From assembly GCF_965363235.1 (NCBI RefSeq), contig NC_134844.1:49534872-49598871 (forward strand): a stretch of 64,000 nucleotides of DNA, in the 5' to 3' direction. Within the stretch, counting starts at the first letter, position 1, and every line of letters starts with the position of its first letter. The notes beneath the pieces were generated by a model. The model saw nothing but the letters and a program-made list of their open reading frames with translations, was not told the origin of the DNA and made no database searches. This stretch comes from Mytilus galloprovincialis. Its lineage: Eukaryota > Mollusca > Bivalvia > Mytilida > Mytilidae. The translations under genes and the position numbers were made by a program. Shown one piece after another: positions 3,313 to 40,698 of the stretch.

Positions 3313-4243
3313 CTATATGAACTGATGAATGGTGAATTTCTATAAATTAAATCTCCGAAATCAATTATCATGCATGAGCCAAAAAAAAAAAAAAATAAAC
3401 ACAAATGGGACAGCTTTAATTTTGATGATGTGCCGATTTGTCATATTGCTGGAGTGTCTTTCTCAGGTGCCGAATTGTCTGGTCCGAACTATCTATTTTC
3501 AATATAAGTCTATATATTCAAATTTTCAAGGTACGAAGCCAGGGATGGTTTACTCTTTTCAAATGAACAAAGACCATTGCCTTAATCTGTGAATGACTAT
3601 GATACTTGTATATTTGTCTCTTTGCATTTTTTATGTCAGTGTGATAGAAATGTGTATTTTAAAGTGAATCTTACGGCCAAGACCAATGACCTGTCTCACG
3701 GTCAGAGTTGCCATTCTTGGTTGACAAATGTAATGTAGAAGCTTTCTTTTGACAATGATTAATTCAACCTTTTAAACACTTTAATGATCTTATTCTGATC
3801 TATATCATTAAACGCTTAAATCGATGCTGCAATTTTCTTGATTTAAAACATTTAGATGACATCATCTCTTAAAATTTTCACTGAAAGGATAAAACAAAAA
3901 CAAGGAATTTTAAGACAAATTTCTTCAAGGCAATAAGGCATTCCTGAGCAAATTATAAAGAAGTATACAAAATCTTAAGAAAGAGGTAACAAGATCTTCT
4001 TCATTAAGGATAGTGAGTAAATCCAACTTTTGTTCTAACTCCAAAATAATCCACGATGGACATCATGAACATGATGAAAAATCATTGTATTATAAATTTC
4101 TTCATGAAAAAACCGTTGTGCTAACGTCACAATTTAAAATAAAGATAATCAAACGTCAGTTGCAGAATGTCACAATTTAAATTTAAAATAAAATTAATCA
4201 ATGAATAGGGTGGTAAAGGGTGGTCTGAACGGGCCGTAGTGAT
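3313..4243. other. Intergenic AT-rich stretch, nothing recognised
   Basis: No gene was recognised. The short open frame at 3329-3592 runs through an A-tract and has no protein resemblance I know. Close to the transposon boundary, GTCACAATTTAAA occurs twice (near 4129 and 4168), a small local duplication. Confidence 0.4.
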
Positions 4244-4752
4244 CACAGGGACTCGGTTAGCAGATTAAAATTTTGTTAATCAATGTTTTTTATATTTTTT
4301 TTAGTATTTCCTGTCTATTTGTATTACTTTATTAACGTATTTGACGATGTCATCGATATTTCTTTGTTTTCTAGCAATGTGCACTTTACTATCCATATCC
4401 GTATACTGAAAAAACCTAAAGGGATCTAAGTCGCCATCTTGGATTGCCTTACCTACTTGGAATAAAAAATATTTAAAAATATTAATAAATTACTGTATAC
4501 CTTACAAATGCACTCGTTTTCTTCCTAAATAATTCTTCTATCACATGCATATTTTCATTTCCCGATCAACGGAACCCTTACGCAGCTTCGGTTGCATTCA
4601 GGTCGAAACATTCAAATTTCCCGGCGAAAGCAACGTTGCTGGCACTCTCGCCGTTTCGCAACGATTCAGACGAAAGGGGAGGTAACATCTTGTTATTCGG
4701 AACTTCTCGGATGAATACTCCCTACCTGACGATAACTACCCAAATTATCGAA
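4244..4752 (+). repeat. Left terminal inverted repeat (509 bp), probable promoter and leader of the helicase gene
   Basis: It pairs with 12685-13193 without visible gaps. Pairing stops within TCGAA at 4748-4752, where the first ATG of the helicase frame begins. The inner half is GC-richer and contains a CCGCC-free but CpG-containing stretch around 4560-4700 suited to a promoter. As the right copy stands equally close upstream of the transposase start, a shared promoter is inferred. Confidence 0.85.
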
Positions 4753-4781
4753 TGCAATTTTCCCGCAATGTAAACAACAAC

Positions 4782-7592
4782 ATGGATTCAGGACAGGATT
4801 TGGCTAAAAAACTTATTTGCAATGGACATAACCTTGTTTTGACAGGTCAAGGGGGAACAGGAAAAACACACACAATTAAATCATGTTTTGAGCAATTGAA
4901 ATTATTAGGAAAATGCGTCCAATTGACATGCTACACAGGAATAGCCTGCAGACAGTATCCCTCATCCATAGGTGCTACAACATTACACAGGTTTTGTGGA
5001 CTAGAAGATGGTCGACATAATAACAATGACTTGTTAAATTTAATCAGTTTTGATGAAAGATTTCTAATTACAAAATGCAGAATTACTAAAACAGATGTAT
5101 TAATTATTGATGAAGTTTCAATGGTGTCAAAAAAAATATTTGAACAAGTAGAATTTATTTGTCGAAAAATCAAAAATCCAGCATTATATTTTGGAGGAAT
5201 CCAAGTTGTCCTTAGTGGTGATTTTTTTCAGCTGCCACCAATACGTGATGAACTGTATGGAGATTATGGCCATTATTGCTTTGAAAGCAATTTTTTTATA
5301 AATTTATTTCCTCACAGAATTAATCTCAGTAAAATTTATAGACAAAATGAGACATCTCTATCAAATGCTGTGTCAGAATTAGAAAAAGGCGAACCATCCG
5401 AAGAAACCAATCTATTTATAAAATCTTTAAATAGAGACATAGAAATTCCAGACGGTGAACCGGTTGTAAAATTATTTTCTAGAAACCTTGATGTTGACTT
5501 CTTCAATTGTGATAAATTAGAGACATTGAATGAATACCCCCTGCATTGCTTCCCATCTAAAGATGAAGGGGATCATTTTTATTTAAAAAAAATGCTGGCA
5601 CCCAAACATTTAGGGTTGAAAATATCAGCACCTGTTATGTTGTTAGTAAATTTAAGTGACAAATTGGTCAACGGACTTATAGGGAGAGTGCAAAAAATAC
5701 ATGAACATGAAATACAAGTACAATTTGTACTCGATGGAAAAAATGAGAGTGTTGCTATTACCAAGTATACTTTCACAAAATATGATCCAGTTGACAAAAA
5801 ATGCATTGCCAAAAGAATTCAGTTTCCAATTAAACTGGCGTTTGCAATAACAATCCATAAATCTCAGGGCATGACAATTCCTTATTTGGAAATTGATTGC
5901 AAAAATTCAAACCAACCAGGACAAGTTGGTGTGGCAGTAGGCCGAGCTAAATTAATCAGTGGACTAAAAGTGACCAACTATAAATCATCCAGTATAAAAA
6001 GACATCCTGAGGCAGTATACCAGTTTTATCGTTTATGTGAGGTTCCCTGCATGATCAATTTTGAAAATGTATGTTGTAAAATTGCGTTCAAAGAAGATAA
6101 TATTACAGAAGTACATATGGAAATATCTGCAGGAGGGAGAGGGAAAATCCGATATATTGGTGGATATGTCATTGCAAAGTGTCGATATAAACTTACAAAA
6201 ACTATACAAAATAATTTATTTGTTCCTGGGTTAGTACCAGAGGTTAGACAATTGAAATTCAGGGTTAACATTTTAGATGAAATGATTGTGTCTGCATCAG
6301 AAATTACAAATGAATCAATATATGAGGAGACTTTAGAGGAGACCAAAAGAAAGCAAAATCTATCAGAAGGTCTGACAAACATTCATGACAAAATTTTTGA
6401 ATTCTTTGAGAGTCTTGAATTAAAAGTTAGAACTCTTCTTTGTTACAAAAACCTTCAACATCACAGAAAAGAACTGTTCAAATTTGCTCAAAATGAAATT
6501 TTATCTGACAATGCACTACTTGAGGAATTTTGCTTAAAATATTGTTATGTAAGGACAGCAGTAGAAACTGAGGAGGAAGAGCAAGATGATATGAGTATTT
6601 TATTAGAAATGGGAGAAAAATTAGTAAACACCTGTGTGCATTTGGAAATTATATTTAAATTTATTGTGAACCTTTTTCTAAATGTTTCTATAGCCCAGTT
6701 TAGGAAGGATTACTTGACAGCCATAAGAAGAGAGAAAAGTAAAGCATTGCGTAAAAAGGTTATGGAAAAAACTGAAAAGAAAAAAGGAGTTAAAACAATT
6801 GATATGAATTTTCTTATGACTGACACATCTGAAAATAAAATTGTCTCACACCTTGGACTAAAATCTATGTCATTACAGAATGAAAAATTCTATTTAGAAT
6901 TCACAAAGAAAGATTTGATTAAAATCTTGAAAGCATATGGAGTGAATTTATCAATGAGTAAGAAAAAACCAGAATTGGGACAAGTATTGGCTGAAAAGTT
7001 GAATGAGAATAGTGCTATGCCAAATTATTGCATTTTCAAAGATTCTAGTACATGTACAGACAAAGAGATACATCATCCTGATACAATTGTTGAAATGCCA
7101 GAAACAGAAATAAGTGCACCCAGTGCAACAGTTGCAGTGTCTGATAAAAGTATGACACAATCTCAAGAAGATGCACAAATACATGTACACCAAGATAACA
7201 CAACTGAAACTACAACTCATTTACCTTCTCAGAGTGTTGTTACTGAACCTGACAGTGCAAGTGTTTTTGTCACAACTGATTGCACCACCCAAGCAAGTTC
7301 ATCAAAGAGGAAAGGTAATAAGAAAACTACAAGAAAGCAAACAAGTAAAGCCAAAGGTAGACAGGGGAAAAGGGGTATAGGAAGAAAGTTGAAACAAACA
7401 ACACCACTTCCAGATTCCTCAGATGAGAATTGTGGTATTTGTGGAAAACCTGAAAAATCTGAGGAGGACTGGATTTGCTGTGATATATGCTCTATTTGGT
7501 ATCATAGAGACTGTGTCGGATTAGAAGATGAAACCAGTTGGCTGACGTGTTCCAATCCTGATGCTGTATATACTTGTCCAATGTGTGTTTAG
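4782..7592 (+). CDS. Transposon-encoded PIF1-like helicase with SAP-like region and PHD finger
   Basis: The open frame runs from an ATG at 4752; the in-frame ATG at 4782 (ACAACATGG) has a better start context and lies outside the inverted repeat, so I start there (936 aa). Residues below count from 4752. Helicase superfamily 1B motifs are complete: Walker A GQGGTGKT at 32-39, Walker B VLIIDEVSM near 116-124, GDFFQLPP at 156-163, FAITIHKSQGMT near 364-375 and VGRAKLISGL near 396-405. The core is short for PIF1. A motif KIRYIGGYVIAKCRY follows at 465-479. Residues 718-753 (TKKDLIKILKAYGVNL onward) resemble a SAP DNA-binding motif. A Ser/Thr- and Lys-rich linker precedes a C4HC3 PHD finger from C894 (CGIC, CCDIC, WYHRDC, CPMC). 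Inferred role: unwinding DNA during transposition, with chromatin reading by the PHD finger. There are no introns. Confidence 0.85.
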   Translation: MDSGQDLAKKLICNGHNLVLTGQGGTGKTHTIKSCFEQLKLLGKCVQLTCYTGIACRQYPSSIGATTLHRFCGLEDGRHNNNDLLNLISFDERFLITKCRITKTDVLIIDEVSMVSKKIFEQVEFICRKIKNPALYFGGIQVVLSGDFFQLPPIRDELYGDYGHYCFESNFFINLFPHRINLSKIYRQNETSLSNAVSELEKGEPSEETNLFIKSLNRDIEIPDGEPVVKLFSRNLDVDFFNCDKLETLNEYPLHCFPSKDEGDHFYLKKMLAPKHLGLKISAPVMLLVNLSDKLVNGLIGRVQKIHEHEIQVQFVLDGKNESVAITKYTFTKYDPVDKKCIAKRIQFPIKLAFAITIHKSQGMTIPYLEIDCKNSNQPGQVGVAVGRAKLISGLKVTNYKSSSIKRHPEAVYQFYRLCEVPCMINFENVCCKIAFKEDNITEVHMEISAGGRGKIRYIGGYVIAKCRYKLTKTIQNNLFVPGLVPEVRQLKFRVNILDEMIVSASEITNESIYEETLEETKRKQNLSEGLTNIHDKIFEFFESLELKVRTLLCYKNLQHHRKELFKFAQNEILSDNALLEEFCLKYCYVRTAVETEEEEQDDMSILLEMGEKLVNTCVHLEIIFKFIVNLFLNVSIAQFRKDYLTAIRREKSKALRKKVMEKTEKKKGVKTIDMNFLMTDTSENKIVSHLGLKSMSLQNEKFYLEFTKKDLIKILKAYGVNLSMSKKKPELGQVLAEKLNENSAMPNYCIFKDSSTCTDKEIHHPDTIVEMPETEISAPSATVAVSDKSMTQSQEDAQIHVHQDNTTETTTHLPSQSVVTEPDSASVFVTTDCTTQASSSKRKGNKKTTRKQTSKAKGRQGKRGIGRKLKQTTPLPDSSDENCGICGKPEKSEEDWICCDICSIWYHRDCVGLEDETSWLTCSNPDAVYTCPMCV

Positions 7593-8355
7593 TTAGACAA
7601 ATGTCATGAATGTAAGTATACTTCACCTTTCATTCACCTATTTCTAGTAATTGGTTGGCCAATTCCATTCAAATTGATTAAAAATTTTAAATTGAGCTCA
7701 CTTAAAAACTGATATCTACATGTATTACAGGTGCATGGTGTGGGGTATACATCAATGACAGTAATCCAACAACAAAGACCCTAAAAATTCTGAACAAAAT
7801 ATATATCATGTACATATTTTTGAAAAAATATCTATACAATGCCCAATTCCAGATTGTCCAATGTCTACAAAAATTGTTAACAAATTTACAGAAACTGTAT
7901 GGGGTATTTCAATGAGATAGCAATCCAACAACACAAAAAAACATGTCATCTAGAGGTCAAAATGTCAATCTTTTTTGATTATGGTATGTATTTTTCCAGA
8001 ATATAGGTACACAGATTGCCTTCTTTCGGGGCCTTTTATCGCTGACTATGCGGTATGGGCTTTGCTCATTGTTGAAGGCCGTACGGTGACCTATAGTTGT
8101 AAATGTTTGTGTCATTTTGATCTTTTGTGGATAGTTGTCTCATTGGCAATCATACCACATCTTCTTTTATATATTTTTAAGTTAATTTTGTAATTCAGAG
8201 AAATTTTGCTTTTCACCAAAACAAATTATCATTAATAATCTGACCTGTTTCATTTATCTGAACTCAGGAAAATAAATAACAATTTAAAATAAAATAAAAC
8301 ATTTCAACAAATTCAAATTTTGTCATTATATTCTATTGCATACATTTTTAGAAGT
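7593..8355. other. Intergenic stretch between convergent helicase and transposase genes
   Basis: The two stop codons face each other about 760 bp apart. The stretch carries one dispersed short repeat (8021-8172) and AT-rich sequence. AATAAA occurs near 8270 on the plus strand, so it could serve the helicase mRNA. No open frame of interest was found. Confidence 0.5.
8021..8172 (+). repeat. Dispersed short repeat, main subfamily copy
   Basis: It reads GGGCCTTTTATCGCTGAC, CTATGCGGTATGGGC, CGGTGACCTATAGTTG and ends CTCATTGGCAATCATACCAC. It is nearly the same as 13500-13655 and the reverse complement of 61835-61935. It is a SINE-like or MITE-like family that has landed between the two transposon genes. 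Confidence 0.75.
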
Positions 8356-11300
8356 TTATTGTTTCCTGATTTTCTTGCAGGGCTCGCTACATGTCTCCTT
8401 GGAAGTTCCAGTTGTATAGATGTTTGTTGTGGTACAGTTTGACAGTCCACCTGTATTTGATTTTCTTGATATTGAACCTTCACCAAGTATAATAGTGTTC
8501 ATGGTTCTACTGTATGTTAGGTAAGTAGGATTGGTATTTGCTCCATTGTGTAGACCCCTTTGTTGAGAAAATATGTTTTCTAAAACATCACTGTTAATTC
8601 GATTTGGAATAATTGATGAGGATATGCGTTGAAATCTATCTTTACACATTTCATCAAAACCCACCAGAAGTGAGGTAAGATCCTCCCTGGTTTGAAATGA
8701 TAATAGGCACTTCTCTTTATCTTTGATTTCAGTACTTTGCTTAATACTAGCCTCCCAAGCTCTGAACCAATTCAGGACCTCTCTGTTCTCATCAAGTCTT
8801 TTATCAGAATACTGACATATGGGACGTTGATCCCTAAAATTTTTTGTAAGTACAGAAGTTTTTTTTAGAAATTCAATGCTACTGTTTAGCTCGTCTCCTT
8901 TTTCTTTCAGTGACATTTGGTAGCATTGCATTAAATGAAGCATATTTTCATTTAAAACATCCTCAGCTAGTTTATTCCGCATCTTTGATTGAGATGTGAG
9001 AAAAAAGTGTTCCATAGTTAACTGCTGATAAATTTTGAATGGGTTCACAGCTATGTCCCATTGGTATGCCTTGTACCAGTGCTCCCAAAAAATATGATTT
9101 GATTCAAATTTTAATACTTTTTTGTGAGTATTGAGAAGACCGCTTTTAGATATGTTGTTCCGAATTTTTTTCATAACATGGGAATAGTCCATTATAACAT
9201 GTATATTTGGTTTTGAACTGTCATATATGTTCTTAATACTCATTGAAAACATTGTTTCTGATGTCTTACCATCAATTAATATCTTCATGAAGTCTCTGTT
9301 GTATTGAGCACCATCAAGACTAACATATGTTACTGTGAAACCAAACAATCCTAGCATTTTTACTGATTGCCAAAATATTAACAGCATTTCAGATGGAGTG
9401 ACTTGTGTCGTCGGATAATGTGCAAAAGGGAACCTGAAACCTGTATGTCCTAAAAACAAAAGTTGCAACACATGGGAAGCTAGTTGAAGACTTTCCTTAC
9501 CGCTGCAAAGAGTTTTCATATAGTTTGTTTCATCAAGTCCCTCATTAAAGCCAATAATTTCAAATGAGTTGCCTTTTTTGCGAAGTTCTAAGTCCTCCTG
9601 AATGGACATCTCATCCAACATAATCCCGCCTTCATAGCCACCTAATCCAATATTTTGGGCTAAAGCCTCATTTTTCATCCAATGTAAAATGTCTTTTTGT
9701 ATTCCAGGTTCATGCTGCACTCTGTTTTTATACGTTTGGAGTAAACACTTAGACGGAAGAACCATAAATCCACTTTTTGCAAGATCTTCATATGCACGAG
9801 GAGAACGACAGTAAATTGATAAACACATTCTGATGATATCTTTATCCCAGCGCCTAGCATGAGGATTTAAATTAACAAACTGAGTTTGTGATAATAAAAA
9901 AGATTGTGCTTTTTCTGGAAAACCACCTAAAAATTGTTTTAATTGTAACAAATTATTGTTATTTACTGGTAAATCATCACATGGTTTCTGTAAAGTCTTG
10001 TTGTCATTTTGAAAATCATTGTCATTATTTTTGTTCTTAAATTTCCTGCATACCGCACATACATTTAATTTTGATTGAAACGGAACAACACCTTTGCAGT
10101 TTTTAGATCTGTATTTAAATATCGAATCATGATTGGTATCTGCACGATTTTCTCTCAGCGCATTTTCTGGTAAATCAATGATGTTGTTGATTTCAGATTC
10201 ATCAACCCCAGAACAGATTATAAAGTTTTTTGCTAAGTCAATTATGCACTTTACACTTTCTTTAGACAATTCAAATGTGTCAGATATTTTTAAATCATCA
10301 AGAAAAACCTTTTTACCTGAAATTGTTACATTCCATATTCCAGAGGAATGAAAAGTAATTTCTGTTAAAATTCTGTTGCCATTGACTAAACAACCATTAA
10401 AGTGTCCTAATGTTATTGCATGGTCAGTTTTACTTATTAAAATGGTATTTTCTTGAATCATATTTGAAATGTGTTGAAATTTAAATTCATCTTCTTTTGA
10501 AACTGGAATCTTCCAGGCAAGTCCATAATAAACGTATGACGTCCATTATCACTGTACTATTATGCATATTTTAGGGGCCAGCTGAAGGACACCTACGGGT
10601 GCGGGAATTCTCGCTACATTGAAGACCCATTGGTTGCCTTCGGCTGTTGTTTGCTCTATGGTCGGGTGGTTGTCGCTTTGACATATTCACCATTTCCTTT
10701 CTCAATTTTATTTGGTGAATTTTTTATAATTATTTTTACATCGCTTTGTTTTAGCCACACAATTCATAAACATTGGAATTTTTCTTATGATTCTTCCAAT
10801 TTCATGGGTGGAAAATTCCAAATTTCTTTGTTGTATTTCATACAGTTCAATAGATGAGTTCTCATCTTGAAAGATATTCTCTGTCAACCTAAAAAAATAT
10901 ATTCTTTGAATTACAAAGTGCTGTTTTTGTAGCCTTAAACATTTGTTTTTGCTTTAAATATGCCTTGTTTTGTTATTTTTGTTCATGAGTTACTGTCTCG
11001 TTGATGCATACCCAACATCTTCTTTTATTCATACATTATGGTACTAGATTTTCAAGCAACATTTTTTGTTGTTGCAAGGATGTATGCATAAGTAATATAA
11101 ATCCCATAAAAGCTAGCTTCAGTAAATACAAAATATTCATTGATTGGGCATGAACAATTGTATTTAAGTTTGTGTATTGAAACAGATATCCAGTTTTATT
11201 GCTATTTGTTTAAATTTTTATTATGTTAATAAAGTATAATGTCAATTTGCAGCTTTACAGTCTCTTTATATAAGGAAAAAGGAGATGTGGTATGATTGCT

Positions 11301-12599
11301 AAGAAGAAATCTATCCACCATATTGCAATAGGTATCCAACGTTATTGCTGTTTATAAAAACTTGCATTATGTTTATAAAGTATATTGCCTTTAACAATAT
11401 AAGCAAACAAAACAGGAGTTGTGGTATGCCTGCCAAGTAGGAAAGTGTCAATAATTAATTAATGACTTTATTTAAGCAACTATAAGTCAACTGTACAGCC
11501 TTCAACAATGAACAATTTGTCAAAGACCATGCTGTTATGTCAGCTTCAAACATGAAAAATGTATCTATGACGGATAAAAAAAGGAAAATCAAATATGACA
11601 GACAGCAACCAATGACACACCAAATAGCAGGCTTCTGTATGCAATAGGATTATAATGTGATGTGGGCACTTCCCTGACTTGTACAGCAGTGTATAGAATT
11701 TATAAAAGACAAAAGTCAACAGCTACCTGTGTAATGTCTAGTGTTTGCACTGAAACTCTTAATTTCAAAAGTAATTTTTGTTTGCTGGGTACTGGTGTCT
11801 GTCTGAACTACATCTACCAAATATTTGCTTTATTCATCAAATTATAGGTGTGCTGCATTTTGGGCTTCTTTTAAAAAGTTATTTTCATCTTCAGTATAAT
11901 ATCCAATGAGACAATCAGGAAATGAAGATCAAACTAAACTCGCATATGAGGTTTTAAGGATATTTTTTGTTGGCTTGCTGTCTAAATGATGTAAACCATT
12001 ATTATACTTCTTGCGATGATCTAACTTTATGCATGAATATGTTCCATATGAGTTCAGTCAATTGATTCACTTCTCATAATCCTGCAATACACAGCAATAC
12101 AAACCAGTATATTGGACTTAGGCAGCAACCATTTGAATTTGAAGGGGGGGGGTATGGTTTTTTTTAGTCAATCTTTTTTCACCTTTTGCGAAAAACAATC
12201 TTTCTTTCATATGAAGTCATGAGGTCTAAGTATTTGCAATGTATGTCACTTAACAACGAAAAAAACAGTATCATATAGTCGGCTAGGACCCAGACAAAAA
12301 ATATAAGTAAGTTAGAAAAAAAGACATGGGAGACATGAACCACTGACAACCATCAAACTGCAGGCTCCTTACATGGGACAGACACTGAAATAACTATTTC
12401 AAGTTGTGTATTTCCAGATTATTACTTTTAAGATTTGCCTTCCCCCCCCCCCCCCCCCCCCCAAGAAAAAAAATCTAGTATTTTTATCAGGAAAGAGACT
12501 TCTAACTAAATTAACTAACTGTTATACATGTATAACTAATTTTGACTATTAAATTACAATAAATAATTACCATGAAACTAGCGAACTTGTCTCCTCCAT
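8356..12599 (-). CDS. P-superfamily-like transposase, predicted three exons (12599-12571, 10888-10740, 10502-8356)
   Basis: The last exon holds a 701-codon frame from an internal ATG at 10461. Upstream exons are inferred: exon 1 starts at an ATG 86 bp inside the right inverted repeat and ends at GTAATT; exon 2 follows TTTTTTAG at 10889 and ends at GTAAAA; exon 3 follows TTCCAG at 10503. All phases agree, giving about 774 aa starting MEETSSLVSWLTENIFQDEN. An RNase H-like catalytic core is suggested by D in GGIMLDEMSIQED (codon 9615-9613), D in SLDGAQYNRDF (9315-9313), the D-x2-H motif MDYSHVMKKIRNN (9189) and E in SDVLENIFSQQRG (8580-8578). The last, followed by GANTNPTY, is typical of the P/THAP9 C-terminal region. 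CAVCRKF is a possible zinc-binding CxxC. No THAP domain is visible. The last intron contains a dispersed element; if that intron is not spliced the N-terminus would be lost. Confidence 0.72.
10509..10720 (-). repeat. Dispersed-element fragment inside predicted transposase intron 2
   Basis: About 10540-10710 read on the minus strand matches the first 170 bp of the element at 34370 (AAAATTGAGAAAGG, then CCCGACCATAGAGC, TTCAATGTAGCGAGAATTCC, CAGCTGGCCCCTAAA). It falls between the predicted donor at 10739 and acceptor at 10503, so it probably sits within an intron. Without splicing it would interrupt the transposase frame. Confidence 0.65.
10889..12570 (-). other. Predicted transposase intron 1, filled with decayed repeats
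   Basis: The minus strand has GTAATT at the start and TTTTTTAG at the end. It contains decayed copies of the short dispersed repeat near 11276-11335, 11407-11660 and 12285-12410, all in the orientation GTGGTATGATTGC. It also holds a run of 22 C near 12441-12462. No coding sequence was recognised. Confidence 0.55.
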
Positions 12600-12684
12600 T
12601 TGTTCTACAATTCTGTTTTATCTGTTAAGATTCTGTTTTTGGCGGATTTGTAGTTAGCCGGGAAATTATTGCGGGAAATTTAAT

Positions 12685-13193
12685 TTCGATAATTTGGGTA
12701 GTTATCGTCAGGTAGGGAGTATTCATCCGAGAAGTTCCGAATAACAAGATGTTACCTCCCCTTTCGTCTGAATCGTTGCGAAACGGCGAGAGTGCCAGCA
12801 ACGTTGCTTTCGCCGGGAAATTTGAATGTTTCGACCTGAATGCAACCGAAGCTGCGTAAGGGTTCCGTTGATCGGGAAATGAAAATATGCATGTGATAGA
12901 AGAATTATTTAGGAAGAAAACGAGTGCATTTGTAAGGTATACAGTAATTTATTAATATTTTTAAATATTTTTTATTCCAAGTAGGTAAGGCAATCCAAGA
13001 TGGCGACTTAGATCCCTTTAGGTTTTTTCAGTATACGGATATGGATAGTAAAGTGCACATTGCTAGAAAACAAAGAAATATCGATGACATCGTCAAATAC
13101 GTTAATAAAGTAATACAAATAGACAGGAAATACTAAAAAAAATATAAAAAACATTGATTAACAAAATTTTAATCTGCTAACCGAGTCCCTGTG
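12685..13193 (-). repeat. Right terminal inverted repeat (509 bp), probable promoter of the transposase gene
   Basis: It is the reverse complement of 4244-4752, ending CCGAGTCCCTGTG. The predicted transposase start at 12599 lies 86 bp inside its inner end, the mirror of the helicase start, which is 30 bp inside the left copy. Confidence 0.85.
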
Positions 13194-13369
13194 GATCCTA
13201 CAGTTCAATAGTCAGACAGTTTAGTGGTATTTCTACTTCATATGTATGTGAGTCGGAAGTCATGTACTGGATTTGAGTACTGTGTATATATGATGAAAGA
13301 ACCGTGGAAACTTATCTAAAAGTAAAAAGATCCCACCTACCAACTGGAGGAAAAGCTGAACATGACTTC

Positions 13370-13655
13370 CTGTATGTGCCTGTCCCAAGTCAGGAGCCTG
13401 TAATTCAGTTGTTGTTTGTTTATGTGTTACATAATTTTTTTTCATTCATTTTTTTTTACATAAATAAAACTGTTAGTTTTCTTGTTTGAATTGTTTTACA
13501 TTGTCTTATCCGGGCCTTTTATAGCTGACTATGCGGTATGGGCTTTGCTCATTGTTAAAGGCTGTACGGTGACCTATAGTTGTTAATGTCTGTGTCATTT
13601 TGGTCTTTTGTGAATAGTTGTCTCATTGGCAATCATACCACATCTTCTTTTTTAT
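13370..13655 (+). repeat. Longest copy of the dispersed short repeat
   Basis: It starts with CCTGTCCCAAGTCAGGAGCC and continues through GGGCCTTTTATAGCTGAC, CTATGCGGTATGGGC and GTCTCATTGGCAATCATACC to a T-rich tail. It joins two modules that elsewhere occur apart (the first in reverse at 22866, 33520 and 34615), so it gives the best view of the full element. Confidence 0.7.
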
Positions 13656-13945
13656 ATTTCCAGTCACTTGTGTGTGTTTTTAGACCTCCATAAGTCAGTT
13701 CTGGTCACACATGACTGCTTTCACTGTATTCACAGAAAAGATATTGAACGCATTTTGATGTAAGCATGGAGTTTAAAACCGAGCAAAGGCAGAATCAGGA
13801 GGGGGAGGGGGTATCTGTAAATTAAGTTAAAAAATATAACCACAGGGATTCAGTTTTGGAAAAGTTAGGTCTGTTTCGTCTCGAAAGCCAGGTAGAATGT
13901 CTTGTGTCTGCATGTGATTAGTCTATATCATATCTGGTTGTATAT

Positions 13946-15008: not shown

Positions 15009-15437
15009 ATGTCGTACATGTTACAGCATCTTCACAATGGATGGCAAGTGGATCAGGCAATTCTGTCAGAGGAGGACCGAGTTGTTGTTATTAGATTTGG
15101 TCACGATTGGGACCCTACATGTATGGTGATGGACGAAACATTATACAGATGTGCTGAGAAGATGAAAAATTTTGCTGTCTGCTATCTGGTTGACATTACT
15201 CAAGTTCCTGATTTCAACAAGATGTACGAGTTGTACGATCCTTGTACAGTTATGTTCTTTTACAGAAACAAACACATCATGATTGATTTGGGTACAGGTA
15301 ACAACAATAAAATCAACTGGGCCATGGAGGATCCTCAAGAATTCATTGACATTGTTGAAACTTTGTTCCGCGGAGCCAGAAAAGGAAGAGGTCTTGTAGT
15401 GTCACCAAAAGATTATTCTACTAAATATAGATATTGA
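15009..15437 (+). CDS. TXNL4A: TXNL4A / DIM1, U5 snRNP 15 kDa thioredoxin-like splicing protein
   Basis: The complete 142-aa frame has the full length of the family and ends in the conserved KDYSTKYRY. Matching blocks include HLHNGWQVDQAILSEEDR, VVVIRFGHDWDPTCM, VPDFNKMYELYDPCTVMFF, RNKHIMIDLGTGNNNKINWA and ARKGRGLVVSPKDYSTKYRY. The protein is an essential component of the U4/U6.U5 tri-snRNP that keeps the spliceosome inactive until activation; it has a thioredoxin fold without redox activity. The vertebrate gene has several coding exons, here there is one. An acceptor-like TTTTCAG at 14940-14946 suggests a spliced 5' leader, which argues for the working gene, but a well-kept retrocopy cannot be excluded. 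Substitutions such as F for I or M in the C-terminal helix are conservative. Confidence 0.93.
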   Translation: MSYMLQHLHNGWQVDQAILSEEDRVVVIRFGHDWDPTCMVMDETLYRCAEKMKNFAVCYLVDITQVPDFNKMYELYDPCTVMFFYRNKHIMIDLGTGNNNKINWAMEDPQEFIDIVETLFRGARKGRGLVVSPKDYSTKYRY

Positions 15438-22153: not shown

Positions 22154-22834
22154 AGAAGAAAGTATGTTTCAGAAAAGGAAACATTTGCCGTGTAAACTGC
22201 CAGTTCCAAGTCCAAATTATGAATAAAGGAGGAGGGAAGTCATTTTTCTCCTAATTGGCGAAATCGTATGTTTTATTTTTGGCGCAAATGATACCATGTA
22301 ATTTTAAAACAGGTGGCGCAAACGTAGCATTAGAGAAAAAAAGTTGTGGCGCAAAAGGACGCATTTCATTTTTGGCGCAAACGGATCTCTCCCTTTCTAG
22401 TGATGACTTCTGCACACATGCATCTTTCGTCAAAGACATAGGGTTCAACTTCACCAGCATATTCCTCTGATTTGGTCGAGAAAATCGTTAATGATTCTGT
22501 CATAAATCGATTTCAATGTTTTATGGACATACAAAAGTGAAAGGGCATTGAAAAAATAAGCCTGTTTTTAATACATTTGATGCTAAATAATTTTGTTGTA
22601 AATCAAAAAAAAAAATGTGCAATTCTGTATTTCGCTTGAAGGAAATTAAAAAATTTATTTTAGACTATCAAATATTCGCTAAATGTTGTCAGGGGGTCAG
22701 ACGTCAGTCAGGCAATACAGAAAATGATACTCATTTAACTTGAATTTGTGAATTGTCGAAGTTAAGTTATGGTCCTTATGATGATTTAATTACGGGGACC
22801 TCAATATCTCCCAAGAAAAAGAGTAAAATTAAAA

Positions 22835-23205
22835 ATCATACAAGACTAACAAAGGCCAGAGGCTCCTGACTTGAGACAGGCGCAAAAATGCGACTAGTTA
22901 AACATGTTTTTGATATCTCAATCTTCCCCCTATACCTCTAGTCAATGTAGAAAAAAACAAACACACAACACTGCGCACAGTAAAACTCAGTTGAAGAGAA
23001 GTCAGAGTCCGATGTCACAATAGGTAACAAAAGAAACTAAACAAATTGACAATGATACATAAATTAACAAAAGACTTCTAGCAGTTACTGACATGCGAGC
23101 TCGAGACCTGAATTAAACTAATTAATGATATCGTCTTCATCATATGAATATCAAGCACAATCCCTGCCGTTAGGGATTTAGTAGTATACCATCATAAAAT
23201 ATATG
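22835..23205 (+). repeat. Partial copy of the 590-bp dispersed element
   Basis: From ATACAAGACTAACAAAGGCC through AGGCTCCTGACTTGAGACAG, CCCTATACCTCTAG and TATCGTCTTCATCATATGAA it follows 34590-34950 block by block, with the first 220 bp missing. Confidence 0.75.
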
Positions 23206-27005: not shown

Positions 27006-29160
27006 ACATTCACCGATCACATATTACTGGTTAGATTAAAAAATAATATATTATTTAGATTAAGAAGTACTTTAAGAAATTGATTGATTGTTGTTTGCCA
27101 TCAGTACAGCCGCAAATATTTCAGACAAGTTCAGGGAGAAAACTAAATAATGAATACAATAGGGAATGTTACTGGTCGAATAAATGTCATCGGTCATTCA
27201 GAGTGAAGTATAGATACGAAACTTTGGACTGTCGATTGAAAATAGTTTGTTTTGATAACAACCGCCGGTAGGTATAGACAAATACGGTTGATAGACGGTA
27301 TATAGGAGCACTAAATTCTATGTTAACCACCGACAGTAGGTATAAAGAAATACTATTGAAAGACGGTATATAAAGGAGCACTATATTTTACGTTAACCAC
27401 CGACGGTAGGTATAAAGAAATACTGTTAATAGACGGTATATAGGAGCACTATATTGTATGTTAACCACCGACGGTAGGTAAATTCAGATACTTTCGACAG
27501 ACGGTATATATGAGCACTATATAATACGGACCATATAATACGTTATATTGACCATCGACGGTAGGTATCAATGAAAACTGTTGATAGACGGTTTATAGGA
27601 GCACTTTATTGTATGTTAACCACCGACAGTATGTATAGACACATAATTTTAATAGACAGCACTATATTTTACGTTAACCACCGACGGTAGGTATAGACAA
27701 ATACTTTTGATATACGGTATATATGAGTACTGTATTGCTTGTTAACCACCGATGGTAGGTATAAACAGGTACTGTTGATATACGGTATATAGGAGTACTA
27801 TATGTCATGTTAACCACCGACGGTAGGTATAGACTAAATACTGTTGATAGACAGTATATAGGAGGACTATATTGCATGTTAACCACCGACGATAGGTATA
27901 GACAAATACTGTTGATATACGGTATATAGGTGCACTGTATTGCATGTTAACCACCGAAGGTGGGTATAGAAACAGGTTAGAAACATAGTGTTGATAGACG
28001 GTATATAGGAGCACTATATTGCATGTTAACCAACGATGGTAGGTTTAGAAAAATACTGATAGTAGACGGTATATAGGTGCACTGTATTATATGTTAAACA
28101 CTGACGGTAGGTAGAGAAAAATAGTATTGATAGACGGTATATAGGAGTACAGTAATGCTTGTTAACCACCGATGGTAGGTATAGACAGGTACTGTTGATA
28201 TACGGTATATAGGAGTACTGTATGGCATGTTAACCACCGACGGTAGGTACAGACAAATACTGTTGATAGACGATATATAGGAGTACTGTATGGCATGTTA
28301 ACCACCAACAGTAGGTATAGACACATACTGTTGATAGACGGTATATAGGAGCACTATATTGTATGTTAACTACCGACAGTAGGTATTAGACAAATATTGT
28401 TGATAGACGGTATATAGGAGCACTATATTGTATGTTAACTACCGACAGTAGGTATAGACAAATACTGTTGATAGACGGTATATAGGAGCACTATATTGTA
28501 TGTTAACCACCGACGGTAGATATAGACAAATTCTGTTGATAGACTGTATATAGGTGCACTATATTGTATGTTAACTACCGACGGTAGGTATAGACAAATA
28601 CTGTTGATAGACGGTATATAGGAGCACTATATTGTATGTTAACTACCGATAGTAGGTATAGACAAATACTGTTGATAGACGGTATATAGGAGCACTACAT
28701 GTATATTGTATGTTAACTACCTACAGTAGGTATAGACAAATACTGTTGATAGACGTTATATAGGAGCACTATATTGTATGTTAACCACCGACGGTAGGTA
28801 TAGACGAATACTGTTGATAGACGGTATATTGTATAGGAGCACAATATTGTATGTTAACTACCGACAGTAGGTATAGACAAATACTGTTGATAGACGGTAT
28901 ATAGGAGCACTATATTGTATGTTAACCACCGACGGTAGATATAGACAAATTCTGTTGATAGACTGTATATAGGAGCACTATATTGTATGTTAACTACCGA
29001 CAGTAGGTATAGACAAATACTGTTGATAGACGGTATATAGGAGCACTATATTGTATGTTAACTACCGACAGTAGGTATAGACAAATACTGTTGATAGACG
29101 TTATATAGGAGCACTATATTGTATGTTAACCACCGACGGTAGGTATAGACAAATACTGTT

Positions 29161-31700
29161 GATATACGGTGAATAGGAGTACTGTATTGCATGTTAACCA
29201 CCGACGGTAGGTATAGATAAATACTGTTGGTACACGGTATATAGGAGCACTATAACGCATGTTAACTACCGACGGTAGGTTTAGAAAAAAAATTAATAAT
29301 AGACGGTATATAGGAGCATTTTATTGCATGTTAATCACCGACGGTAGGTATAGATAAATTCTGTTGATAGACGGTATATAGGAGCACTATATTGCATTTT
29401 AATCACCGACGGTAGGTATAGACAACTGTCAATAGACTGTGTAATGGAGCACTGTATTGTATGTTAACTACCGACGGTAGGTATAGACACATACTGTTGA
29501 TAGACGGTATACAGGAGCACTATATTGTATGTTAACTACCGACAGTAGGTATTAGACAAATACTGTTGATAGACGGTATATAGGAGCACTATATTGTATG
29601 TTAACTACCGACAGTAGGTATAGACAAATACTGTTGATAGACGGTATATAGGAGCACTATATTGTATGTTAACTACCTACAGTAGGTATAGACAAATACT
29701 GTTGATAGACGTAATATAGGAGCACTATATTGTATGTTAACCACCGACGGTAGGTATAGACAAATACTGTTGATATACGGTGAATAGGAGTACTGTATTG
29801 CATGTTAACCACCGACGGTAGGTATAGATAAATACTGTTGGTAGACGGTATATAGGAGCACTATATCGCATGTTAACTACCGACGGTAGGTTTAGAAAAA
29901 AAAAATAATAGACGGTATATAGGAGCATTGTATTGCATGTTAATCACCGACGGTAGGTATAGATAAATTCTGTTGATAGACGGTATATAGGAGCACTATA
30001 TTGCATTTTAATCACCGACGGTAGGTATAGACAACTGTCAATAGACTGTGTAATGGAGCACTGTATTGTATGTTAACTACCTACGGTAGGTATAGACACA
30101 TACTGTTGATAGACGGTATATAGGAGCACTATATTGTATGTTAACTACCGACAGTAGGTACAGACAAATACTGTTGATAGACGGTATATAGGAGCACTAT
30201 ATTGTATGTTAACTACCTACAGTAGGTATAGACAAATACTGTTGATAGACGTTATATAGGAGCACTATATTGTATGTTAACCACCGACGGTAGGTATAGA
30301 CAAATACTGTTGATATACGGTGAATAGGAGTACTGTATTGCATGTTAACCACCGACGGTAGGTATAGATAAATACTGTTGGTACACGGTATATAGGAGCA
30401 CTATATCGCATGTTAACTACCGACGGTAGGTTTAGAAAAAAAATTAATAATAGACGGTATATAGGAGCATTTTATTGCATGTTAATCACCGACGGTAGGT
30501 ATAGATAAATTCTGTTGATAGACGGTATATAGGAGCACTATATTGCATTTTAATCACCGACGGTAGGTATAGACAACTGTCAATAGACTGTGTAATGGAG
30601 CACTGTATTGTATGTTAACTACCGACGGTAGGTATAGACACATACTGTTGATAGACGGTATACAGGAGCACTATATTTTATGTTAACTACCGACAGTAGG
30701 TATTAGACAAATACTGTTGATAGACGGTATATAGGAGCACTATATTGTATGTTAACTACCGACAGTAGGTATAGACAAATACTGTTGATAGACGGTATAT
30801 AGGAGCACTATATTGTATGTTAACTACCTACAGTAGGTGTAGACAAATACTGTTGATAGACGTAATATAGGAGCACTATATTGTATGTTAACCACCGACG
30901 GTAGGTATAGACAAATACTGTTGATATACGGTGAATAGGAGTACTGTATTGCATGTTAACCACCGACGGTAGGTATAGATAAATACTGTTGGTAGACGGT
31001 ATATAGGAGCACTATATCGCATGTTAACTACCGACGGTAGGTTTAGAAAAAAAAAATAATAGACGGTATATAGGAGCATTGTATTGCATGTTAATCACCG
31101 ACGGTAGGTATAGATAAATTCTGTTGATAGACGGTATATAGGAGCACTATATTGCATTTTAATCACCGACGGTAGGTATAGACAACTGTCAATAGACTGT
31201 GAAATGGAGCACTGTATTGTATGTTAACTACCTACGGTAGGTATAGACACATACTGTTGATAGACGGTATATAGGAGCACTATATTGTATGTTAACTACC
31301 GACAGTAGGTACAGACAAATACTGTTGATAGACGGTATATAGGAGCACTATATTGTATGTTAACTACCTACAGTAGGTATAGACAAATACTGTTGATAGA
31401 CGTTATATAGGAGCACTATATTGTATGTTAACCACCGACGGTAGGTATAGACAAATACTGTTGATATACGGTGAATAGGAGTACTGTATTGCATGTTAAC
31501 CACCGACGGTAGGTATAGATAAATACTGTTGGTAGACGGTATATAGGAGCACTATATCGCATGTTAACTACCAACGGTAGGTTTAGAAAAATACTGATAA
31601 TAGACGGTATATAGGAGCATTATATTGCATGTTAACCACCGACGGTAGGTATAGACAAATACTGTTGATAGACGGTGTAAAGGAGTACTAATTCGTATGT
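29161..31700 (+). repeat. 1151-bp higher-order repeat inside satellite array A
   Basis: The variant GATATACGGTGAATAGGAG occurs at about 29161, 29772, 30312, 30923 and 31463, spacings 611, 540, 611, 540. A block of 17 units (1151 bp) is therefore repeated at least twice almost unchanged. The two identical open frames 1151 bp apart confirm it. Confidence 0.85.
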
Positions 31701-31792
31701 TAACCACCGACGGTAGGTATAGACAAATACTTTGATATACGGTGAATAGGAGTACTGTATTGCATGTTAACCACCGACGGTAGGTATAGATA

Positions 31793-32195
31793 GAATGAAA
31801 TTCAAAACAGTGTGGCTGTGGCCATTCATTGACACATTAAATTCATCCATTGACTGGGACAATTTACATGAACGTTTGTCTGTAACGACCATTGTTCACG
31901 ACGTACCTACGATAGACATTTAAACTGTGGGGTCAGCAAAGGTTTCTTAACGCCTTTAATTATAAAATAATTCAAAAAATTAAGTAGGAATAACCTTTAT
32001 GTTTTGATTTATATAATTGATATAAATCAAAACATCGTGTTGAGAACCTTTGGTGACCCCATAGTTTAAGTGTCTATAAAAAGTACATAGTGAGTATTGG
32101 TAGTTACATACAAACGTTCACCTTAATTGTCCCAGTCAATGGATGAATTTAATGTGTCAATCAATGGCCACAGCCACACTGTTTTGAATTTCATT
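31793..32195. mobile_element. 403-bp foldback MITE inserted in the satellite, ATA duplication
   Basis: The ends AATGAAATTCAAAACAGTGT and their inverse pair over roughly 150 bp, including TGGCTGTGGCCATT and ATTAAATTCATCCATTGACT. ATA stands at 31790-31792 and 32196-32198. The intact satellite unit has GGTATAGATAAATACTG, so the empty site is known and shows duplication of TA or ATA. A palindrome ATATAATTGATATA lies in the middle. Confidence 0.88.
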
Positions 32196-32849
32196 ATAAA
32201 TACTGTTGGTAGACGGTATATAGGAGCACTATAACGCATGTTAACTACCGACGGTAGGTTTAGAAAAATACTGATAATAGACGGTATATAGGAGCATTAT
32301 ATTGCATGTTAACTACCGACAGTAGGTATAGACAAATGATGTTGATAGACGGTATATAGGAGCACTATATTGTATGTTAACTACCAACAGTAGGTATAGA
32401 CTAAAACTCTTAATAGACGGTATATATAATAGCACTATATCGTATGTTAATCACCGACGGTAGGTATAGACAAATACTGGTGATAGACGGTATATAGGAG
32501 CACTATATTGTATGTTAACCACCGACGGTAGGTACAAACAAATACTGTTGATATACGGTGTATAGGAGCACTATACTGTATGTTCACTACCGACAGTAGG
32601 TATAGACAAATACTGTTGATAGACGGTATATAGGAGCACTATATTGTATGTTAACCACCGACGGTAGGTATAGATAAATACTGTTGGTAGACGATATATA
32701 GGAGCACTGTATTGTTATTGGTTGCTGTCTTTGATATTGATTTTACGTTTATCGTTTCAGCATTAATCGGGCTGTTTGTTTTCGTTTTTCGTCACATCTA
32801 GTCAGGAATGGGTTTTAATAGCATTTTACATGAATACATATGTGTAACT

Positions 32850-34369: not shown

Positions 34370-34962
34370 CAGAATAAAATTGAGAATGGAAATGGGGAAT
34401 GTGTCAAAGAGACAACAACCCGACCAAATAAAAAACAACAGCAGAGGGTCACCAACAGGTCTTCAATGTAGCGAGAAATTCCCGCACCAGGAGGCGTCCT
34501 TCAGCTGGCCCCTAAACAAATATATACTAGTCCAGTGATCATGAACGCCATACTAATTTCCAAATTGTACACAAGAAACTAAAATTAAAATAATACAAGA
34601 CTAACAAAGGCCAGAGGCTCCTGACTTGGGACAGGCGCAAAAATGCGGCGGGGTTAAACATGTTTGTGAGATCTCAACCCTCCCCCTATACCTGTAGCCA
34701 ATGTAGAAAAAACAAACGTGAAACAATACGCACAGTAAAACTCAGTTTAAGAGAAGTCCGAGTCCGATGTCAGAATATGAAACAAAAGAAAATAAACAAA
34801 ATGGCAATAATACATAAATAACAACAGACTACTAGCAGTTATTGACATGCCAGAACCAGACCTCAATTAAACTGATTGAAAGATTATGTCTTCATCATAT
34901 GAATATCAGGCACAATCCCTCCTGTTGGGGGTTTAGTATTATACCGTCATGAAATATACAAC
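34370..34962 (+). repeat. Fullest copy of the 590-bp dispersed element
   Basis: It runs from AATAAAATTGAGAATGG through CCCGACCAAATAAAAAAC, TTCAATGTAGCGAGAAATTC, AGGCTCCTGACTTGGGACAG, GGTTAAACATGTTTGTGAG and TCTTCATCATATGAATATCA to CCGTCATGAAATATA. Parts recur at 91-165, 10540-10710 (inverted), 22835-23205, 33495-33590 and 16690-16760. No open frame is kept, so it is probably non-autonomous; class unknown. Confidence 0.75.
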
Positions 34963-36257: not shown

Positions 36258-39200
36258 AATTGTCCATACCAATCGTCAGTGTTTACCATACAATACAGTA
36301 CTTCTATACACTGTCTGTATACAGTATTTGTCGGATTTTGTCCATACCTATCGTCGATGTTTGACATAAAATACAATACTCCTATATACCGTATATCAAC
36401 AGTATTTGTCTATACCTACCGTCGGTGGTTAACATACAACACAGTCCTCCTATATACCGTATATCAACAGTATTTGTCTATATCTACCGTCAGAGGTTAA
36501 CATACGATACAATACTCCTATATACCGTATATCAACAGTATTTGTCTATACCTACAGTCGGTGGTTAACATGCAATAAAGTGCTCCTATATACCGTCTAT
36601 CAACAGTATTTGTCTATACCTACCGTCAGTGTTCAACATACGATATAGTACTCCTTCGCACCGTCCATCAACAGTATTTGTCTATACCTACCGTCGGTGG
36701 TTAACATACGATATAGACTAGTACTCCTTTACACAGTCTATCAACAGTATTTGTCTTAACCTGCTGTCGGTGATTTACATACAATATAGTACTTCTTTAC
36801 ACAGTCTATCAACAGTTTTTGTCTATACCTACCGTCGGTGGTTAACATACGATATAGTACTCCTTTACACAGTCTATCAACAGTATTTGTATATATTTAC
36901 CGTCGATGGTTAACATACGATAACGTACTTCTTTACACAGCCTTTCAACATTATTTGTCTATACCTACCGGCGGTGGTTAACATACGATATAGTGCTCCT
37001 TAACACAGTCTATCAACAGTATTTGTATATATCTACCGTCGATGGTTAACATACGATAAAGTACTCCTTTACACAGCCTTTCAACATTATTTGTCTACAC
37101 CTACCGTCGGTTGTTAACATACGATATAGTACTCCTATATACTGTCTATCAACAGTATTTGTCTATACCTACCGTCGGTGGTTAACATTCAATATAGTGA
37201 TCCTATATACCGTCTATCAACAGTATTTGTCTATACCTACCGTCGGTGTTAACATACAATATAGTGCTCCCATATACCGTCTATCAACAGTATTTGTCTA
37301 TACCTACTGTCGGTAGTTAACATACAATATAGTGCTCCTATATACCGTCTATCAACAGTATTTGTCTATACCTACCGTCGGTATTTGACATACAATATAG
37401 TGCTCCCATCAACCGTCTATCAACAGTATTTGTCTATACCTACCGTCGGTGGTTAACATACAATATAGTGCTCCTATATACCGTCTATCAACAGTATTTG
37501 TCTATACCTACCGTCGGTGGTTAACATACAATATAGTGCTCCCATATACCGTCTATCAACAGTATTTGTCTATACCTACTGTCAGTAGTTAAAATACAAT
37601 ATAGTGCTCCTATATACCGTCTATCAACAGTATTTGTATATACCTACCGTCGGTAGTTAACATACAATATAGTGCTCCTATATACCGTCTATAAACAGTA
37701 TTTGTCTATACCTACCGTCGGTGGTTAACATACAATATAGTGCTCCTATATACCGTCTATCAACAGTATTTGTCTATACATACCGTCAGTGTTTAACATA
37801 CGATATAGTACTCCTTTGCACCGTCCATCAACAGTATTTGTCTATACCTACCGTCGGTGGTTAACATACGATATAGTACTCCTATATACCGTCTATCAAC
37901 ACTATTTGTCTATACCTACTGTCGGTAGTTAACAAAAATATAGTGCTGCTATATACTGTCTATCAACAGTATTTGTCTATACCTACCGTCGGTGGTTAAC
38001 ATTCAATATAGTCCTCCTATATACCGTCTATCAACAGTATGTTTCTATACCTACTGTCGGTAGTTAACATACAATATAGTGCTCCTATATACCGTCTATC
38101 AACAGTATTTTTCTATACCTACTGTCGGTAGTTAACATACAATATAGTGCTTCTATATACCGTCTATCAACAGTATTTGTCTATACCTACCGTCGGTGGT
38201 TAACATACAATATAGTGCTCCTACAATGTATATACCGTCTATCAACAGTATTTGTCTATACCTACCGTCGGTGGTTAACATACAATAGAGTGCTCCTACA
38301 ATGTATATACCGTCTATCAACAGTATTTGTCTATACCGACTGTCGGTAGTTAACATACAATATAGTGCTCCTATATACCGTCTATCAACAGTATTTGTCT
38401 ATACCTACCGTCGGTGGTTAACATACATTATAGTGCTCCTATATACCGTCTATCAACAGTATCTTTCTATACCTACTGTCGGAAGTTAACATACAATATA
38501 GTGCTCATATATACCGTCTATGAACAGTATTTGTCTATACCTACTGTCGGTAGTTAACATACAATATAGTGCTCCTATATACCGTCTATCAACAGTATTT
38601 GTCTATACCTACCGTCGGTGGTTAACATACAATATAGTGCTCCTATATACAGTCTATCAACAGAATTTGTCTATATCTACCGTCGGTGGTTAACATACAA
38701 TATAGTGCTGCTATATACCGTCTATCAACAGTATTTGTCTATACCTACTGTAGGTAGTTAACATACAATATAGTGCTCCTATATACCGTCTATCAACAGT
38801 ATTTGTCTGTACCTACTGTCGGTAGTTAACATACAATATAGTGCTCCTATATACCGTCTATCAACAGTATTTGTCTATACCTACCGTCGGTGGTTAACAT
38901 AAGATATAGTGCTCCTATATACCGTCTATCAACAGTATTTGGCTATACCTACCGTCAGTGGTTAACATGGAATATACTGCTCCTATATAACGTCTATCAA
39001 CAGTATTTGGCTATACCTACCGTCAGTGGTTAACATATAATATAGTGCTCCTATATACTGTCTATCACCAGTATTTGTCTATACCTACCGTCGGTGGTTA
39101 ACATACAATATAGTGCTCTTATATACCGTCTATCAACAGTATTTGTCTATACCTACTGTCGGTAGTTAACATACAATACAGTGCTCCTATATACCATCTA

Positions 39201-40698
39201 TCAACAGTATATGTCTATACCTACCGTCGGTAGTTAATATACAATATAGTGCTTCTATAAACCGTCTATCAACAGTATTTGTCTATACCTACCGTCGGTG
39301 GTTAACATAAGATATAGTGCTCCTATATACCGTCTATCAACAGTATTTGGCTATACCTACCGTCAGTGGTTAACATGGAATATACTGCTCCTATATACCG
39401 TCTATCAACAGTATTTGGCTATACCTACCGTCAGTGGTTAACATACAATATAGTGCTCCCATATACCGTCTATCAACAGCATTTGTCTATATCTACCGTC
39501 GGTGGTTAACATACAATATAGTGCTCCCATATACCGTCTATCAACAGTATTTGTCTATACCTACTGTCGGTAGTTAACATACTATATAGTGCTCCTATAT
39601 ACCATCTATCAACAGTATATGTCTATACCTACTGTTGGTGGTTAACATACAATATAATGCTCCCATATACCGTCTATCAACAGTATTTGTCTATACCTAC
39701 TGTCGGTAGTTAACATACAATATAGTGCTTCTATATACCGTCTATCAACAGTATTTGTCTATGCCTACCGTCGGTGGTTAACATACAATATAGTGCTCCT
39801 ACAATGTATATACCGTCTATCAACAGTATTTGTCTATACCTACCGTCGGTGGTTAACATACAATATAGTGCTCCCATATACCCTCTATCAACAGTATTTG
39901 TCTATACCTACCGTCGGTGGTTAACATAAGATATAGTGCTCCTATATACCGTTTATCATCAGTATTTGTCTATACCTACTGTCGGTAGTTAACATACAAT
40001 ATAGTGCTCCTATATACCGTCTATCAACAGTATTTGTCTATACCTACCGTCGGTGGTTAACATACAAAATAGTGCTCATATATACCGTCTATCAACAGTA
40101 TCTGTCTATACCTACTGTCGGTAGTTAACATACAATATAGTGCTCATATATACCGTCTATGAACAGTATTTGTCTATACCTACTGTCGGTAGTTAACATA
40201 CAATATAGTGCTCCTATATACCGTCTATCAACAGTATTTGTCTTTACCTACCGTCGGTGGTTAACATACAATATAGTGCTCCTATATACCGTCTATCAAC
40301 AGTATTAATCTATACCTACTGTGGGTAGTTAATATACAATATAGTACTCCTATATACGGTCTATCAACAGTATTTGTCTATACCTACCGTCGGTGGTTAA
40401 CATACAATATAGTGCTCCTATATACCGTCTATTAACAGTATTTGTTTATACCTACCGTCGGTGGTTAACATACAATATAGTGCTCCTATATACCGTCTAT
40501 CACCAGTATTTGTCTATACCTACCGTTGGTGGTTAACATAAGATATAGTGCTCCTATATACCGTCTATCAACAGTATTTGGCTATACCTACCGTCAGTGG
40601 TTAACATGGAATATAGTGCTCCTATATACCGTCTATCAACAGTATTTGTTTATACCTACTGTCGGAGGTTAACATAGAATATAGTGCTCCTATATACC
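36258..40698 (-). repeat. 68-bp satellite array B, inverted relative to array A, about 65 units
   Basis: Read on the plus strand the unit is GTTAACATACAATATAGTGC, TCCTATATACCGTCTATCAA, CAGTATTTGTCTATACCTAC, CGTCGGTG, the exact reverse complement of the array A unit. The left end is most diverged. Some units carry an extra ACAATGT insertion (38222, 38299, 39801). The array ends abruptly at TATATACC near 40698. Confidence 0.95.

Follow-up and report, generated by a model that had tools for sequence, protein, structure and literature searches.

A two-gene element with identical 509-bp ends

The window analysed here is a 64-kb stretch of the Mytilus galloprovincialis genome (64,000 nucleotides of contig NC_134844.1, positions 49,534,872 to 49,598,871, forward strand), and all readings below are based on the sequence of one element copy within it. 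The element is 8,950 bp long and occupies window positions 4244–13193. Two genes, one for a helicase and one for a transposase, converge tail to tail between terminal inverted repeats (TIRs). The features that define it are as follows.

4244–4752, plus strand: left TIR, 509 bp, identical to the right TIR, starting CACAGGGACTC; CpG observed/expected 1.50
12685–13193, minus strand: right TIR, 509 bp; weaker similarity reaches 12668
4752–7592, plus strand: helicase gene, single frame, 946 aa
4788–6041, plus strand: PIF1 helicase core, about residues 13–430, with GQGGTGKT, IIDEVSM, GDFFQLPP, IHKSQG and VAVGR
6072–7151, plus strand: middle region of the helicase, residues 441–800; no Pfam family reaches its cut-off here, and a weak lead points to a possible P-type C-terminal domain
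7431–7586, plus strand: PHD finger, residues 894–945, complete C4HC3; Pfam 1.3e-5, above cut-off
8356–10461, minus strand: transposase gene, single frame, 701 aa, with D283, D383, D425xxH428 and E628

The TIR arms agree at 509 of 509 bases, mismatches begin at base 510, and similarity fades at about base 526 (99.2% overall). The final identical base, 4752, doubles as the A of the helicase start codon (ATG). The two stop-free stretches span 968 and 729 aa, against a mean of 111 aa and at most 188 aa when the element was shuffled 300 times with a first-order Markov model.

A PIF1-PHD helicase and a P-like transposase

Helicase residues 24–205 match the Pfam PIF1 family at 3.2e-22, above the cut-off, and a match to the Pif1 2B domain lies slightly below it. 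Among PDB chains the helicase scores best with PIF1 5o6b (172.6 bits), and it reaches 54.3 bits with Helraiser, a Helitron protein. The best PDB matches of the PHD finger are PHD finger family protein 1we9, ALFIN-LIKE 3, death-inducer obliterator 1 and Pygopus, and binding to methylated H3K4 is our guess from these matches rather than a result. A tblastn search of phages with the helicase returned 383 records, all below 60% identity; in the 15 of 383 matches listed, phage Pif1-like proteins align at 29–32% identity over residues 4–459 only.

The transposase matches Pfam TNP-like_RNaseH_N (PF21787) at 2.3e-8, its 34.8 bits exceeding the cut-off of 24.6; TNP in this name stands for P-element transposase. 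The protein also carries the P signature of D, D, [C/D]xxH and E as D283, D383, D425xxH428 and E628, spaced by 100, 42 and 203 residues. The corresponding residues of the Drosophila P enzyme are D230, D303, D339 and E531 (spacing 73, 36 and 192), and [C/D]xxH belongs to the P signature as described in PMC8230255. D283, D383, D425 and H428 are invariant between the transposase and its one relative found (contig VBAS01000140.1, below), and E628 aligns with a glutamate of that protein. A single-sequence structure prediction for the transposase had a mean pLDDT of 31 and is not usable. PDB sequence searches with the transposase, the relative and their alignment gave no P transposase among the matches listed. 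An upstream 81-aa minus-strand frame at 10711–10953 was weighed as an extra transposase exon and set aside, having no Pfam match.

We are highly confident of the resulting anatomy: identical ends, two intact inward-reading genes, a P-type DDE signature, PIF1 motifs and a PHD finger. An earlier note on this DNA had described the element in outline, and its coordinates are exact, its 509-bp ends do lack mismatches and both of its long frames are intact. Its naming of a PIF1-PHD helicase and a P-like transposase is borne out by the above-cut-off Pfam matches and, for the latter, the DDE signature.

Junctions, CpG content and internal repeats

Four further features lie in or at the edges of the element.

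4241–4243 and 13194–13196, no strand: GAT, the sole direct repeat at the junctions; may be chance
12659–12880, minus strand: ATTTCCCG cluster, 4 of the 6 occurrences in the window (12659, 12672, 12814 and 12873)
8022–8176, no strand: dispersed repeat within the element; shares 93.6% identity with 13504–13659 outside it
10534–10712, no strand: dispersed repeat directly upstream of the transposase frame; shares 84.5% identity with 34373–34553

Accident would produce the GAT duplication 1 time in 64. Kolobok elements duplicate TTAA at their targets; the flanks here, GTAGTGAT and GATCCTAC, have no such duplication. The flanks resemble each other in reverse: counting outward from GAT, 7 of 16 positions pair between GTAGTGAT and reversed GTAGGATC. 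This likeness may reflect a target that was palindromic or a TIR that was once longer and has decayed.

The high CpG ratio of the TIRs falls to 0.26, 0.29, 0.39 and 0.34 along the body of the element (0.26 in the helicase frame and 0.39 in the transposase frame); the left flank has a ratio of 0.43 and the window to the right of the element 0.66. The pattern is as would be expected of promoter-like, unmethylated ends and a methylated body. All six occurrences of ATTTCCCG in the window, against 0.98 expected in 64 kb, lie inside the element; besides the cluster of four there are plus-strand occurrences at 4557 and 4616, and four of the six amount to two sites, each mirrored across the TIRs. These motifs are candidate protein-binding repeats. 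An E2F-like motif, TTTSSCGC, was dropped: the window holds eight against 1.31 expected, yet only two of the eight are in the element.

A blastn search found no second copy of the element in the window, the matches being short dispersed repeats of at most 181 bases. Because two dispersed repeats sit inside the element, the copy may not be young, or its family may carry these repeats. In an older copy, the TIRs could be kept identical by conversion between the two arms.

A single relative of the transposase

Searches for relatives covered IMG/VR and the GTDB genomes. None was found in IMG/VR, where protein and alignment scans gave 4, 6, 30 and 1 stretches and tblastn confirmed none of them. Pattern scans yielded 8, 8 and 1 loci in IMG/VR and 15 in GTDB; tblastn supported one of these 32 loci. 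Another scan of the GTDB genomes matched 37 stretches, none of which was confirmed, and a tblastn search of phages and plasmids with the transposase found no match.

The supported locus is VBAS01000140.1, a 4.2-kb contig in a genome labelled as a Bacteroidetes metagenome-assembled genome. It encodes a P-like transposase, apparently split by introns, that matches PF21787 (1.1e-9), PF21788 (2.8e-8) and PF21789 (3.4e-5) and aligns piecewise with the element transposase at 24–34% identity. Within its bin the transposase and PF21787 match this contig only, and PF21787 is found in none of 14 control genomes; the contig is apparently eukaryotic DNA contaminating the bin. After the exon with the catalytic glutamate, the relative has a long C-terminal frame that is absent from the element transposase. 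Its transposase also has a weak internal match to an Agenet domain, below the cut-off. Since no long inverted ends were seen (the longest pair is 34 nt at 74%, among the 25 of 27 pairs listed), the contig may be a fragment.

The surrounding window

A single intact frame of 142 aa at 15009–15437 (plus strand), about 1.8 kb to the right of the element, matches the conserved eukaryotic protein DIM1 (PF02966, 3e-67). A 68-bp tandem unit forms two long arrays at 27256–32715 (79.9 copies) and 36337–40698 (63.8 copies). The arrays are opposite in orientation and 3.6 kb apart, their consensus units are reverse complements by rotation, and their outer flanks share short matches only. A 380-bp dispersed repeat occurs at 22824–23203 and 34580–34958 with 86% identity between the two places. 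Farther right are a 382-aa frame with an RVT_1 reverse transcriptase domain at 47347–48495 (plus strand; 2.7e-18), likely a retrotransposon remnant, and a 41-bp tandem array at 58508–59689 (28.8 copies, 91% matches).

Comparison with known transposons

The P superfamily (Drosophila P, Galileo, and zebrafish Pdre2/THAP9) is described as sharing a [C/D]xxH DDE transposase, a TNP-like RNase H domain and inverted ends, and Galileo has long TIRs, as the element does. Unlike the members of this superfamily, the element is 9 kb long and has two genes, one of them for a PIF1-PHD helicase, and this copy has no 7–8-bp target duplication, no THAP match in the frames searched (below) and no recognised transposase C-terminal domain. 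Reported target duplications are 8 bp in P and Pdre2 and 7 bp in Galileo; among Galileo copies whose ends are preserved, about 89% are flanked by identical duplications, so some lack them. The element is described as P-like by its enzyme and is not filed as a P-superfamily member, because the junctions were inspected for the defining 7–8-bp duplication and hold none.

AcademH elements have an Academ transposase, 9–10-bp duplications and a helicase of another kind than that of the element. The earlier note considered a cut-and-paste element with its own helicase unusual. Both genes are indeed intact within perfect ends; as a general claim it goes too far, because a helicase on a cut-and-paste transposon is already known from AcademH (PMC10045372) and from KolobokH, whose helicase is a RecQ (PMC9587614). 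KolobokH belongs to another superfamily; the arrangement in Kolobok-1_CCri, whose RecQ lies on the opposite strand, is closer to that of the element. In a fungal survey, the helicase sources are AcademH, KolobokH and Helitron (PMC10799480). For bivalves, a pearl-oyster genome paper reports enrichment of transposon-related domains in non-syntenic regions, a PIF1-like helicase domain being one of them (PMC9646362). Another study surveyed bivalves with profiles for 17 superfamilies, P among them; the counts consulted for its curated library name no P element, and elsewhere the same paper states that every superfamily is represented in bivalves by one element or more (PMC10294476). Among the open-access matches listed, no P-type element with PIF1 was recognisable from the title or the start of the abstract; Repbase, Dfam and most subscription papers were outside this scope, and an earlier database entry for such an element is quite possible.

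A possible role for the helicase in repair after excision

We tentatively favor the reading that the element is a P-superfamily-like two-gene transposon whose PIF1-PHD protein acts in repair after excision. The identical ends would hold matched promoters, so that both proteins would be made together, and the transposase would bind the ends and cut the element out. The PIF1 protein would then work at the break left in the donor site, where it would most likely drive long repair synthesis through D-loop migration. With the sister chromatid as template, this synthesis would restore the 9-kb element and raise its copy number, and the PHD finger would tether the helicase to marked, open chromatin. 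A repair role is proposed because fly PIF1 aids the repair of P-element gaps in the absence of POL32: it is required for efficient repair of the 14-kb P{wa} gap when POL32 is absent (PMC8951532). Breaks left by P excision are repaired through recombination or end joining (PMC7776569), and break-induced replication is promoted by PIF1 and impaired by its loss in yeast, flies and human cells (PMC8998199). By this analogy, the particular assignment of the element helicase to repair synthesis may be right but is doubtful, and the alternatives are that the helicase is a passenger or serves as a structural partner of the transposase.

Several observations weigh against the favored reading. The match to the TNP-like GTP-binding domain (PF21788) reaches 14.6 bits against a cut-off of 24.8 (E 0.045); the 203-residue gap between DxxH and E leaves enough room for a GTP-binding insertion domain. 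No THAP match was found in the 701- and 729-aa frames or in 10 of the 20 listed upstream minus-strand frames of at least 35 aa, a search that a short or split exon could escape. No C-terminal domain is recognised on the transposase, which stops 73 aa past E628. The junctions of this copy carry the 3-bp GAT only, and two dispersed repeats lie within the element. A single copy gives no sign that the helicase travels with the family, and the 4.2 kb of the relative hold no helicase by tblastn at E ≤10, with none of its five frames of at least 60 aa being helicase-like. This sole relative has a transposase without a helicase, so relatives may not carry the helicase as a rule.

The same absence argues that the helicase gene could have been acquired by chance and play no part in transposition, the copy being a rare variant, and the lack of a second copy in the window points the same way. 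Chance capture is not shown by the relative, because its contig may be a fragment. The helicase is also unlike a later arrival, because it is intact over 946 aa with five motifs and a PHD finger, begins exactly at the end of the perfect TIR and is as CpG-depleted as the transposase. On balance we consider chance capture unlikely, though a serious competitor. A different division of labor, in which helicase residues 441–800 are a relocated P-type C-terminal domain and the two proteins must form one complex, is improbable. Its appeal is that the element transposase has no recognised C-terminal domain of its own, that the C-terminal domain of the fly P enzyme touches both transposon and target DNA (PMC7776569), and that the local alignment score of residues 441–800 with the C-terminal frame of the relative was reached by only 9, 3 and 20 of 500 shuffles at the three gap costs tried. 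For the controls (helicase 1–430, transposase 201–680 and the reversed region), the number of shuffles reaching the score was between 137 and 481 of 500. Other comparisons of the same region speak against it: the best BLASTP E value was 0.52, phmmer gave 0.016 on a two-sequence set where the transposase itself gave 0.055, and hhalign scored 15.5, where 200 shuffles averaged 14.5 and reached up to 24.2 and control pieces scored higher, at 17.1 and 20.0. In its fullest form, equally a long shot, the P transposase would be split, with the catalytic half separate and the C-terminal domain set between a PIF1 motor and a PHD reader, giving the element its own repair-synthesis engine at open chromatin and dependable copy gain.

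Membership in another superfamily is a further alternative. CMC/EnSpm elements have CAC ends and a 3-bp duplication, and the ends here start CACAGGG with GAT on both flanks. This assignment is nevertheless very improbable: the transposase is above the cut-off for the TNP-like RNase H domain, no CMC model matches at E ≤1, and the GAT pair has the accidental rate given above. PIF1 on a eukaryotic transposon is usually the mark of a Helitron, so the helicase could derive from a Helitron that became fused to a P-like element or nested within one. Helitrons share the PIF1-family helicase with the element but lack TIRs and are described as having an HUH nuclease and single-stranded transposition, whereas the element has a DDE enzyme and 509-bp TIRs. 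No HUH nuclease, Rep or other Helitron-type Pfam family matches either frame at E ≤1, and the helicase scores far higher with PIF1 than with Helraiser, making a Helitron origin the least credible of these explanations.

Cut-and-paste elements gain copies only when the excision gap is refilled from an intact template. If the repair reading of the element is true, the transposon controls its own repair by bringing the class of helicase that is used for gap refilling, and it would be a source of a PIF1 enzyme specialised for this task. Through the PHD finger, it would become possible to test whether a P-like element targets chromatin.

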